Shown here one piece after another: positions 6,358 through 14,566 of a stretch of 37,954 nucleotides of DNA; positions within the stretch are counted from its first letter, which is position 1, and every line of letters begins with the position of its first letter. The notes under the pieces were generated by a model, which worked only from the letters and a program-made list of their open reading frames with translations, did no database searches and had not been told where the DNA came from. The translations under genes were made by a program, and so were the position numbers. The DNA lies in NCBI GenBank assembly GCA_012837895.1, contig DUQH01000047.1, positions 1-37,954 of the forward strand, given 5' to 3'. Source of the DNA: Candidatus Fermentithermobacillaceae bacterium (GTDB taxonomy: Bacteria > Bacillota > Sulfobacillia > Fermentithermobacillales > Fermentithermobacillaceae).

Positions 6358-10692
<4,335 letters not shown>

Positions 10693-10836: not shown

Positions 10837-10871
10837 ACTGGTTTCACTAAAGATTCAGGAGGAACACGCTT

Positions 10872-12578
10872 TTGGCGAGAAATCTGCCCGCTACAGTCCT
10901 TAGCGATGGCACAATACTGCTGGAAGTCAACAATCCCGAGTACGAGAGCGCCCGCGATGCCATCATGCGGTTCGCGGATTTGGTGAAGAGCCCTGAGTAC
11001 ATCCATACGTACCGGCTGTCTGTGCTGTCGTTATGGAACGCTGCTTCCTGCGGCTTTACCTCTGAACAAGTCATAGAGGAACTAAGCAGCTACTCCAGAT
11101 ACCCGTTGCCGGAAAACATCATAGTGCACATCAAAGACACTATGGACAAATTCGGCATCACCAAGCTTACCTATGAAGACGGGAATCTGATCCTGATCTG
11201 CTCCGACCCGTTCATCATGGAGGAAATAAGAAGGTCGGACAGGATGGAGCCGCACATTGAAAGGCCAGCCGGAAAAGACTCGCTGATAATAAAGGCGTAC
11301 TCACGCGGGCTGGTGAAGCAAATCCTCATCAAGATGGGCTACCCTTGCGAAGACCTGGCAGGCTACACCGAAGGTGATCCCCTGGATATGTCCCTTGCGA
11401 GCATCACAAGAGAAGGATTGCCGTTCAGCCTCAGGCCATACCAGAAAGACGCAAGGGATGCGTTCTGGGCAGGCGGCAGCGTCAGGGGCGGAAGCGGTGT
11501 TATTGTACTTCCATGTGGGGCAGGCAAGACAGTCGTAGGTATGGGAGTCATGGAACTTGTGGGGGCCCAGACGCTGATCCTCACAACCAACGTAGTGGCG
11601 CTCAGGCAGTGGATAAACGAACTCTTGGACAAATCTAACCTGACTGAAGACATGGTCAAGGAATACAGCGGGGATAAGAAGGAAGTAGGCCCTGTGACGG
11701 TTACAACATACCAGATCCTCGCTTACAGGAAGCGGGGCACTTCCAAGGAGATCTTTCCACACTTCGATTTGTTCAACAAGCGGAACTGGGGGCTCATAAT
11801 CTACGATGAAGTACACCTGTTGCCAGCACCTGTGTTCAGAATTACGGCAGACCTGCAAGCCAGAAGAAGGTTGGGGCTTACAGCTACCCTTGTGCGGGAA
11901 GATGGGCGGGAAGACGATGTATTCAGCCTGATCGGGCCCAAAAAATTCGACAAGCCCTGGAAAGAACTTGAGGCTCAGAACTGGATTGCAGCTGCCCATT
12001 GCCATGAAATAAGGGTGGATTTCCCTCAGGACAAACGACTTGAATACCATGTAGCCGGAGAAAGGGACAAGTACAGGATAGCTGCAACCAACCCTGAAAA
12101 GTACCCGCTGGTGAAGGCTATCATAGAGCGGCATCCGGAAGATCAGATACTTGTGTTGGGCCAGTACATAGATCAACTGGAGCACATTGCAGCACTACTG
12201 GATGCTCCCATGATTTACGGCCAAACCCCTAACAGCACCAGGGAAGAGCTATACGAGAAATTCAGGGAAGGCGAAATAAGGGTGCTTGTTGTATCCAAAG
12301 TTGCCAACTTCGCTGTAGACCTTCCTGATGCAAGCGTGGCGATACAAGTATCAGGCACCTTTGGGTCCCGTCAGGAAGAAGCACAGCGCCTTGGCAGAAT
12401 CCTGCGTCCCAAACCTCAAGGTGAAAGTGCAACATTCTACACTTTGGTTACCCGTAACACAAAAGATCAAGAGTTTTCCCAAAAGAGACAGTTGTTTTTG
12501 ACCGAACAAGGATATAAGTATACCATTTGGGAAAGCCAAGATTTCCTTAACCAGTGGAAAAGGAGAAACCAGAGATGA
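10872..12578 (+). CDS. XPB-type superfamily 2 DNA helicase
   Basis: A 568-residue bacterial homologue of the eukaryotic and archaeal XPB/ERCC3 helicase, a 3'-5' DNA-dependent ATPase. Residues 20-125 form an XPB N-terminal (Helicase_C_3-like) domain. The core follows: RPYQ at 188-191, Walker A CGAGKT at 215-220, DEVH at 312-315, LTATL at 336-340 running into the XPB-specific RED motif at 342-344, and the motif VI region QRLGRILRPK. The TTG start at 10872 has AGGAGG nine bases upstream. The stop overlaps the next gene by ATGA. Mycobacterial XPB is likewise followed by a helicase-associated protein. A role in repair or in remodelling DNA at stalled complexes is likely but unproven in bacteria. 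Confidence 0.93.
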   Translation: MARNLPATVLSDGTILLEVNNPEYESARDAIMRFADLVKSPEYIHTYRLSVLSLWNAASCGFTSEQVIEELSSYSRYPLPENIIVHIKDTMDKFGITKLTYEDGNLILICSDPFIMEEIRRSDRMEPHIERPAGKDSLIIKAYSRGLVKQILIKMGYPCEDLAGYTEGDPLDMSLASITREGLPFSLRPYQKDARDAFWAGGSVRGGSGVIVLPCGAGKTVVGMGVMELVGAQTLILTTNVVALRQWINELLDKSNLTEDMVKEYSGDKKEVGPVTVTTYQILAYRKRGTSKEIFPHFDLFNKRNWGLIIYDEVHLLPAPVFRITADLQARRRLGLTATLVREDGREDDVFSLIGPKKFDKPWKELEAQNWIAAAHCHEIRVDFPQDKRLEYHVAGERDKYRIAATNPEKYPLVKAIIERHPEDQILVLGQYIDQLEHIAALLDAPMIYGQTPNSTREELYEKFREGEIRVLVVSKVANFAVDLPDASVAIQVSGTFGSRQEEAQRLGRILRPKPQGESATFYTLVTRNTKDQEFSQKRQLFLTEQGYKYTIWESQDFLNQWKRRNQR

Positions 12579-14155
12579 ACCTGAGAGAAGCTCTTGTTGC
12601 ACTGGCTGTTGAACGTCTCAATTCAACTGCTTATTTCTACGGGATAGCTTTGCCGGACAGTCAGGATCCTGATTACCAGGCAAAACTGGCTGAGCTTATC
12701 TCAAAGCATCTCCTGATTCCTGCCAATGTGCTGGTTGCCATGAACGGCCTCAGCGACGAAGAAATCCTGGCATTGCGCATGATAACCATTGCAGGCGGTG
12801 GAAACGGCGTAATTGTTGAGCAGTGCCACCAGAAACTCAACCAGTTGTCGCGCAAGTGGCGCAGGAATGGTTTTAAGGTAATAGAAGGCCTGATTACCAG
12901 GGGCCTTGTGTTTACAAGGAGAGAAGGTTACCGGCAGGTATACTTTGTCCCCAAAGACTTGCGGGAAGTGCTCTCAGACTTCTTCCTGTCGGCGATTTTT
13001 CAAAGGACTAGCATTGATCCGGCCCATTTCTCCCCGCGTTACAGGTTCGACTTCGCCGCTCCTTTGAGACATGTATGCCTGCTCATGTCATACTTGAGAA
13101 AGCATGAAGTGAGGGTTACCCAGGCAGGCTCCATGTTCAAGAAATGCCAGGATGATCTTGTAGTGATCATAGAGGAAGATGAAAACAGCCTTGACGAGTC
13201 CTTTTTCCCTGTCAGGTACCCGCCCCGCCTTGCGTTCCTGCTGTTCTTCGCAAAATCCCACAGCTTGTGTGAGGAAAGAAGCAGCACCCTCAGGTTAGGC
13301 TCTGAAGCGGAAAAATGGCTGGATGCCCCGTACTCACATTGGCGCAAGACCCTATATACTTACTGGAAGCAAACATTTATTGAGCAGGATTCCGATCTAC
13401 AGACACTCTTGTGGCTGATTGAGAAATCACCTGAAGATACAGTGTTGTCTGTATCGGCCTTGCTGGACGAAATGAACGCCTTGTCAACAAGCCATTCATC
13501 CCACGGACTAAACCTAAGAATCGAGAAGAACCTGGTAGATATGTTGGAATACCTTGGAGCGCTGGAAGTTTACGAATCCAGAAACGACATAATGATCAGG
13601 GTGACCCGGACAGGAAGGGCGCTGTTTGGACTGGAACCCTGGCCCGAAGAGAAGTTTGACACTGACATTTACGTCCAACCCAACTTTGAGGCACTGGTGC
13701 CATGCACCATTGAACCCAGGATCCTGTGGTCAATAGACACCTTTGCAGAGATAATCAAAGTAGACCAGATGCTGGTTTACAAGCTTTCAAGAGACTCAGT
13801 ATACCGCGCTATGCTCCACGGACACACCCCTGATACAATCGAAGAGTTTCTCGCGGAGCATTCCAGGATTCCAATTCCCCAAAACGTGAGTTATTCAATA
13901 TCCCAGTGGGGAACATCCTACGGCAGGATAGAATTTGAAGACGTGATCCTGCTCAAATGTGACTCAAAGGAGCTTGCTGACGAGCTCATGCTGTCACCCA
14001 GGATCAAACCCTACCTTAAGAAGAAAGTGGGCCCGTGTTACATTGTGGTGGACAGGGAATCCTATCAGTCTTTGGTCGCGGCACTTTCAGAGGAAGGGTA
14101 CATGCCTAAAGTCAAACCCAGCACCCGTGTTGCGACTGAGCAGTCAATCATCTAA
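12575..14155 (+). CDS. Helicase-associated (XPB N-terminal/p52-like domain) protein
   Basis: A 526-residue partner of the XPB helicase without a catalytic motif of its own. The N-terminal half looks like stacked winged-helix modules. Residues 365-470 are a Helicase_C_3-type domain. Within it Y402-G450 aligns without gaps to Y47-G95 of the helicase, with 16 of 49 identities by hand count; shared words include SR-P-P-N. In TFIIH the XPB N-terminus binds a homologous domain of p52, so a clutch-like contact is suggested. I start at ATG 12575, which overlaps the helicase stop and has AGGAG nine bases upstream, rather than at GTG 12554. The 3' end overlaps convergent rseC by 12 bases. The function is inferred from the neighbour and domain. 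Confidence 0.85.
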   Translation: MNLREALVALAVERLNSTAYFYGIALPDSQDPDYQAKLAELISKHLLIPANVLVAMNGLSDEEILALRMITIAGGGNGVIVEQCHQKLNQLSRKWRRNGFKVIEGLITRGLVFTRREGYRQVYFVPKDLREVLSDFFLSAIFQRTSIDPAHFSPRYRFDFAAPLRHVCLLMSYLRKHEVRVTQAGSMFKKCQDDLVVIIEEDENSLDESFFPVRYPPRLAFLLFFAKSHSLCEERSSTLRLGSEAEKWLDAPYSHWRKTLYTYWKQTFIEQDSDLQTLLWLIEKSPEDTVLSVSALLDEMNALSTSHSSHGLNLRIEKNLVDMLEYLGALEVYESRNDIMIRVTRTGRALFGLEPWPEEKFDTDIYVQPNFEALVPCTIEPRILWSIDTFAEIIKVDQMLVYKLSRDSVYRAMLHGHTPDTIEEFLAEHSRIPIPQNVSYSISQWGTSYGRIEFEDVILLKCDSKELADELMLSPRIKPYLKKKVGPCYIVVDRESYQSLVAALSEEGYMPKVKPSTRVATEQSII

Positions 14156-14566
14156 CGGCCTGGCAACAGGCATATATTTGCCGGCCTTCCTGGAAGCAGC
14201 ATCATAGCTCCTGAGCCATGCGAAACAACCCACTAGGCCTCCGGCGGCAAACACAGCTGCCCATACAGAAGCGTTGCCCAGGAAGCTGCCGAGAAACCAG
14301 CCGCCTGCATATCCCAAGCCTAGACTCAGCAGGGGTAACATATAAACCAGGAAGGAAAGCCGGAGGTAATCAGCGTCAGGAAGTTCCAATACAACCAAGT
14401 CGCCTGGCTTCGGGTTTCCGGTCTTTACGGCTTCAACAATCATAGTATCGCCGCCAAGGGACAAACGCCCGCCGCAGCGCCCGCAAGTGCTGCAAGCCTC
14501 TTTCCTCGAGACCTCTACTATCACTGCCCGGTCCTTGACCGAGATCACCGTTCCTATCTCCTGCAC
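14144..14566 (-). CDS. RseC/MucC-family redox-linked membrane protein
   Basis: A 140-residue member of the RseC (SoxR-reducing system) family. The N-terminal cytoplasmic domain starts GTVISVKDRAVIVEV and carries a cysteine cluster, C25-x2-C28-x2-C31, suited to metal or Fe-S binding. Two membrane helices follow at about 68-89 and 97-118, then a basic tail. In other bacteria RseC acts with Rnf/Rsx complexes, which reduce SoxR, or with envelope stress control. Here the rnf operon lies 10 kb upstream on the same strand. The GTG start at 14566 has GGGGGA upstream. It closes the shape-gene run 18 bases after rodA and overlaps the convergent helicase-associated gene. The exact role is uncertain. Confidence 0.85.
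   Translation of the reverse strand: MQEIGTVISVKDRAVIVEVSRKEACSTCGRCGGRLSLGGDTMIVEAVKTGNPKPGDLVVLELPDADYLRLSFLVYMLPLLSLGLGYAGGWFLGSFLGNASVWAAVFAAGGLVGCFAWLRSYDAASRKAGKYMPVARPLDD
14157..14186 (+). other. Hairpin just past the helicase-associated gene, inside rseC
   Basis: GGCC-T-GGCAA (14157-14166) pairs with TTGCCGGCC (14178-14186), a nine-base-pair stem with one bulged T and an 11-base loop. It begins two bases after the plus-strand stop codon. No T-tract follows, so it may be a pause or 3'-end stabilising structure rather than a full intrinsic terminator. Confidence 0.4.

Follow-up and report, generated by a model that had tools for sequence, protein, structure and literature searches.

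The XPB gene and its overlapping partner

The window (the whole stretch of DNA that was analysed, 37,954 nucleotides of contig DUQH01000047.1 from a Candidatus Fermentithermobacillaceae bacterium, assembly GCA_012837895.1) carries two overlapping genes between positions 10872 and 14155, one encoding an XPB helicase and the other a partner protein whose predicted architecture is that of the TFIIH subunit p52. Both genes, and all of the features located within them, lie on the plus strand. The XPB gene (10872-12578; 568 residues, P0001) starts with TTG at 10872, ahead of which a ribosome-binding site, AGGAGGAA, is read at 10857-10864 (plus strand). The partner gene (12575-14155; 526 residues, P0002) starts with an ATG at 12575 inside the XPB stop, stop and start overlapping in the ATGA at 12575-12578, and its open reading frame (ORF) ends at 14155. 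The gene boundaries and the ATGA coupling are those given in an earlier note on this DNA, which was made from the letters and a list of ORFs.

P0001 scores 841.7 bits against NF045503, the NCBI bacterial XPB equivalog, exceeding its cut-off of 610, and it is above the Pfam cut-offs for PF16203, PF13625, PF04851 and PF00271. Its motifs include PCGAGKT (residue 214), DEVH (312), LTATL (336) and QRLGR; the RED motif, which the earlier note had placed after LTATL, is indeed found there (residues 342-344, at 11895-11903). The protein begins with a clutch domain (residues about 7-96, at 10890-11159), delimited by PF13625 and by superposition of a structure model on p52. A small alpha/beta domain (residues about 97-164, at 11160-11363, from the secondary structure of the model) follows at the place of the DRD, and the RecA1/RecA2 helicase core (residues 185-552, at 11424-12527) is defined by Pfam and by PDB XPB matches at 186-552. 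When the model of the first 188 residues (built from 34 sequences; predicted local distance difference test, pLDDT, 90.8) is compared with the PDB by Foldseek, XPB chains take ranks 1-18. Residues 3-96 of this model fit the p52 clutch (303-400) with a root-mean-square deviation (rmsd) of 1.6 Å over 91 residues. Residues 97-164 align to Tfb5 (3dom_B, Z 5.7, 53 residues) and to archaeal XPB (2fwr_B, Z 5.6, 56 residues); aIF1 and other unrelated folds reach such scores too. This post-clutch domain is also related in sequence to the C-terminal domain of the partner: of the 61 genomes searched with a profile of the latter, 14 show a match in the post-clutch region of XPB (E 0.001), the window's own genome not being among them.

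Two clutch domains of one family

The homology between the two proteins was first noticed as a 49-residue ungapped alignment of XPB Y47-G95 with partner Y402-G450. On recounting, its 16 identities stand; this is the top ungapped 49-mer score between both proteins, and shuffling the partner 300 times never gave more than 15. The related region is in fact longer, about 125 residues rather than 49: BLASTP aligns XPB 30-157 with partner 386-509 (33 identities in 128 positions, E 5e-10), and the NCBI XPB model itself matches partner residues 386-509 (E 6.7e-11). The PF13625 search on both proteins that the earlier note had called for puts each over the cut-off of 34.2 bits, P0001 at 9-127 with 100.5 bits and P0002 at 366-482 with 82.4 bits, so that the domains fall into the same family and not into unrelated ones. 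The host genome holds only two PF13625 places at E 0.001, one in XPB and one in the partner. Both clutch domains thus belong to one family.

The p52-like architecture of the partner

The likeness of the partner to p52 that the earlier note had seen in the clutch extends along its whole length. In the AlphaFold2 model of P0002 (43 sequences, pLDDT 89.7, predicted template-modelling score, pTM, 0.80), a winged-helix region (residues about 34-343, at 12674-13603, from secondary structure and alignment to p52) is followed by the clutch domain (residues about 361-452, at 13655-13930, from PF13625 and the fit of the model to the XPB N-terminal domain), and then by a C-terminal domain (residues about 455-510, at 13937-14104, from secondary structure and the aligned end of p52), where p52 has its p8-binding domain. 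A Foldseek search of the PDB with this model returns TFIIH p52/Tfb2 chains at ranks 1-22 (best E 5.4e-14) and XPB chains with one further Tfb2 chain at ranks 23-35, the first unrelated chain standing at rank 36; the listing gives entries rather than subunits, 8ebt_D, 7o4i_2, 6trs_A and others being named p52/Tfb2 and the rest being assigned by entry and length. VIA-align places residues 14-510 of the model on human p52 24-461 (Z 15.1, 388 residues; best row from outside TFIIH, Z 9.6), with winged helices, clutch and C-terminal domain in the same order in the predicted model as in p52. The partner clutch fits the XPB N-terminal domain (72-166) to 1.6 Å over 92 residues. At the level of sequence profiles, the partner family finds XPB or p52/Tfb2 as its top 13 of 24 matches among PDB sequences (E 1.8e-4 to 0.12), and a profile of partner residues 315-437 ranks p52/Tfb2 in the first five places, with XPB behind. 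By predicted fold and by profile, the partner is a distant homologue of p52.

XPB and partner genes are kept together

The window's own genome and 60 relatives make up a set of 61, of which 32 have XPB over the cut-off. Those 32 also have the partner at a place outside XPB, and in the remaining 29 neither gene was found. The phylum was sampled with 299 genomes, and each of the 20 with XPB over the cut-off has a partner place outside XPB as well. Five more genomes of this sample match the partner profile. In one of these (G278) the partner adjoins an XPB truncated by the contig end; in G303 the clutch of a diverged XPB accounts for the whole match; in G142 and G160 it covers only the winged-helix part. 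The fifth, G077, has no XPB at E 1e-30 and carries at L131 (3167-3625) an ORF in which an XPB-like motif II stretch (YDEVHLLPAPVFR, identified by eye) is fused to a partner C-terminal domain, and which looks like the remnant of a lost XPB-partner operon. Partner loci of other groups led to 14 genomes, of which 12 have XPB over the cut-off, one has a fragment and one has none. The two genes are retained even when unlinked, on separate contigs in G024 and G054 and 3 kb apart in G035; of 135 distinct pairs, 131 have XPB in front, and in 64 of the 131 the genes overlap by 4 bases. Two additional searches, in which 93 of 154 genomes of the class and 53 of 140 genomes of the phylum of G066 matched, served solely for collecting pairs, because the clutch of XPB itself is among the matches and XPB genes were left uncounted. 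XPB and partner genes are kept together.

Outside these samples, the XPB-like helicase L126 of the archaeon Halorussus is without a PF13625 match at E 0.1, nor is any PF13625 gene annotated within 5 kb of it; in Haloferax, also an archaeon, XPB is matched at E 1e-100 and PF13625 is not. Among viral contigs, 35 stretches fit a pattern and none of the 35 encodes a relative of the partner; among phage records, one place, in an unannotated 9.2-kb faecal record, covers >80% of XPB. PADLOC holds no match to the partner, and its matches to XPB are distant helicases only.

Variants of both genes occur. Some genomes have an additional, shorter partner-like protein of about 360-400 residues, with the winged-helix part and no clutch (L138 2378-3463 in G095; G138:C23:48234-49304; G289:C1:1696459-1697373). 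Other proteins, of about 650 residues, at L139 (1387-3342, G160) and L140 (2938-4908, G142) are similar over their C-terminal 140 residues to the partner's first winged-helix region. Tandem partner-like genes stand beside a single XPB gene at L141 (G387) and L142 (G372), and G550 has two XPB genes over the cut-off (C83:12879-14516 and C89:7124-8761).

A proposed two-subunit translocase and its rivals

XPB and its partner probably constitute a two-subunit DNA translocase, in which XPB is joined by a bacterial homologue of TFIIH p52. The clutch homology, the p52 architecture of the predicted model, the co-retention and the gene overlap are the computed basis of this proposal; clutch docking, control of the ATPase and a role in DNA repair are carried over by analogy from eukaryotic TFIIH, in which the p52 clutch and the XPB N-terminal domain form a pseudo-symmetric dimer (PMC6422496, available portion) and p52/p8 switch XPB on and also cap its rate (PMC7708078, available portion). 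Since both domains and the architecture of the partner recur in the bacterial pair, the same docking and control are proposed here: the partner clutch would dock on the homologous N-terminal clutch of XPB as a pseudo-symmetric dimer; the docked partner would position the two RecA domains of XPB, turning on its weak ATPase and limiting its rate; and the N-terminal winged helices of the partner would tie the motor to its target, whether DNA or another protein.

Several observations weigh against this proposal. In the long alignments, partner and p52 share 14-15% identity. Over all domains the rmsd is 21.1 Å, so the two proteins agree in the order of their domains and not as rigid bodies. Against Pfam Tfb2 (PF03849), the partner scores 14.1 bits over residues 395-430 only; the cut-off of 34.5 being missed, the partner is called p52-like and not filed as a Tfb2 member. 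In the phylum sample, diverged XPB genes below the cut-off in G079 and G303 are accompanied by no partner match outside XPB. The mutant-mapped positions of the p52-XPB interface rank 3, 22, 24, 34, 45 and 88 of 91 in conservation. The human residues compared are E310, Y316, Y318, R337, F338 and M341, numbered through the profile alignment of 315-437, with the equivalents of E310 and M341 inferred from the available portion of PMC7708078. The corresponding partner residue 368 is Q or E in 91 of 128 sequences, 374 is L, M, I or V in 123, 376 is P in 121, 395 is K or R in 74, 396 is unconserved and 399 is M in 53, so that the known interface positions appear to be retained only in part. Lastly, mean-field direct coupling analysis (DCA) gave no usable coevolution signal, 128 pairs being too noisy and shallow a set. 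Of 200 loci, 148 have a same-strand XPB-partner pair (the other 52 are short, run into a contig end, show another gene arrangement or have the genes apart); removal of 11 gappy rows (L116, L117, L118, L125, L135, L136, L141, L145, L154, L173 and L199) and of duplicates left the 128 pairs, whose effective number is 46-90 depending on threshold. The inter-protein top-10 mean was 1.30, compared with 0.72-0.81 in six random re-pairings, a difference that relatedness alone can yield, and the positive controls were poor (area under the curve 0.63 for helix i+4 and 0.72 for hairpins).

Two other readings of the pair have to be set beside this one. The partner could be a winged-helix DNA-binding protein with a duplicated PF13625 domain that serves the same DNA or pathway as XPB and forms no stable clutch with it. 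ArsR/MarR-type winged helices do match its residues 35-146, with Z up to 9.6, its gene is retained in genomes in which it lies far from XPB, and the interface positions just described are poorly conserved; yet the full p52 architecture is matched in order and presence of the partner tracks that of XPB (32 of 32 and 20 of 20), and we regard this reading as quite unlikely. Alternatively, a complex might form through another face than the p52-type clutch, for instance between the partner C-terminal domain and the small domain of XPB, with the partner clutch facing itself. The sequence relation of precisely these two domains, for whose contact the pairing of p52 and p8 in TFIIH would be the model, speaks for such an arrangement, as do the partial conservation of the known interface and a crystal of free p52 in which the MD2 sheet lies in a dimer interface (PMC7708078, available portion). 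In human XPB, however, the corresponding region belongs to the DRD, and both clutches have near-invariant residues in the 128 pairs (in XPB, D12 in 124, E18 in 125, W55 and N56 in all 128; in the partner, P376 in 121, D397 in 123, N437 in 118 and W445 in 119), though folding alone could explain these. On balance, docking through another face is unlikely, and p52-type docking in a two-subunit translocase is the reading that we prefer.

A small third protein in other genomes

The description of a two-protein module, taken from the earlier note, suits this genome, in which a profile of the C-terminal domain finds the partner's own domain only and no separate p8-like place; it does not hold elsewhere, where a small third protein accompanies the partner. 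In Deinococcus aquaticus a 115-residue gene between XPB and partner matches the partner C-terminal domain (E 4e-10), and a scan of 216 loci yielded 15 small ORFs related to that domain, one of which (L131) is probably a remnant and another (L136) a weak match (E 0.0035). Stand-alone small ORFs lie directly before the p52-like gene at L125 (6734-7081), L127 (4338-4556), L128 (3632-3826), L137 (6819-7082), L238-L242, L244 and L245. The loci L238-L245, which took no part in building the profile, have such an ORF directly upstream on the same strand in seven of eight cases, the eighth partner ORF reaching the contig end. Their genomes have XPB over the cut-off in eight of eight, on another contig or far away, and they belong to the phylum of G066, the sample of which includes the Myxococcota record G064. 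A p8-like ORF also overlaps the end of one XPB gene at L129 (G550).

In TFIIH, p8 and the C-terminal domain of p52 share a fold and pair with each other (PMC7708078, available portion), and the small stand-alone proteins are possible bacterial counterparts of p8/TTDA, judging from sequence. The C-terminal-domain profile A3 reaches five yeast-type Tfb5 sequences weakly, at E 0.033-0.042 and behind three unrelated sequences, and Pfam Tfb5 is not among the families matched by 25 small-protein sequences at E 10. A wider reading, the chances for and against which we hold to be even, is that the XPB arm of TFIIH (XPB, p52 and p8) is a free-standing module across bacteria and not a eukaryotic invention. 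Bacillota would then have XPB and the p52-like protein, a separate p8-like protein would be encoded immediately ahead of the p52-like gene in the phylum with the Myxococcota record and in a Deinococcus, the post-clutch domain of XPB would be a third copy of the small domain, and XPD, p44, p34, p62 and the kinase would be eukaryotic additions. If so, eukaryotic TFIIH was assembled onto a ready-made motor with its regulator, and a p52-like partner in bacteria would open the origin of TFIIH to testing. The bacterial pair would also provide a two-protein model of the XPB clutch, the failure of which matters in human repair disorders.

Relation to known systems

The system most like this pair is XPB-p52-p8 of eukaryotic TFIIH (ERCC3/Ssl2, GTF2H4/Tfb2 and GTF2H5/Tfb5), with which it shares an XPB bearing an N-terminal clutch and, in the predicted model, a partner composed of winged helices, an XPB-homologous clutch and a small C-terminal domain in the same order. 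It differs in consisting of two overlapping bacterial genes, in the position of its partner under the Pfam Tfb2 cut-off and in lacking a separate p8-like place in this genome; the p44 family (Ssl1) was found in none of 21 genomes at E 0.01, p34, p62 and MAT1 not being searched for. The pair is no bacterial TFIIH. Archaeal XPB-Bax1 is similar in that XPB has a dedicated partner, one that changes its ATPase (PMC13024598, available portion). Unlike the protein studied here, for which Pfam finds PF13625 and sub-threshold Tfb2 only and no nuclease family, Bax1 is a nuclease bound to the thumb and HD2; the bacterial XPB, moreover, has a clutch.

The XPB of Mycobacterium tuberculosis (Balasingham 2012) belongs to the same helicase family and has an N-terminal domain; in the available portion of that paper (PMC3353954) it is studied without a partner, a bacterial XPB on its own unwound DNA only at high molar excess, and homologues of p44 and p52 are described as not found in bacteria. 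A p52-like partner could explain the need for such an excess. The 'helicase-associated domain-containing proteins' of Actinomyces oris and D. aquaticus also exceed the PF13625 cut-off and are encoded close to XPB. They are longer (805-847 residues) and differently placed, the A. oris gene on the other strand and one gene away from XPB, and the D. aquaticus gene beyond the 115-residue one. A candidate for the mycobacterial partner is Rv0862c. Searches of the open-licence PMC literature, preprints excluded, showed no report of a bacterial p52. The gene family is already catalogued (PF13625) and the type of system is known from eukaryotes; what is new is the stand-alone bacterial form.

Genomic neighbourhood

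The host genome comprises 2.05 Mb in 146 contigs and includes UvrA; the nearest named contigs are those of Candidatus Fermentithermobacillaceae or Bacillota, where the earlier note spoke of a clostridial genome. The pair forms a plus-strand island: its neighbours, the pcrA-like and ligA genes at the left (10611-10692 and 8731-10692, minus strand) and the rodA, minD, minC and PBP2 genes at the right, all lie on the opposite strand. A 140-residue gene (14144-14566, minus strand) is convergent with the partner gene, the two sharing 12 bases at their ends; it has no NCBIfam match at 1e-10, and its product is one that we take to resemble RseC/MucC membrane proteins.

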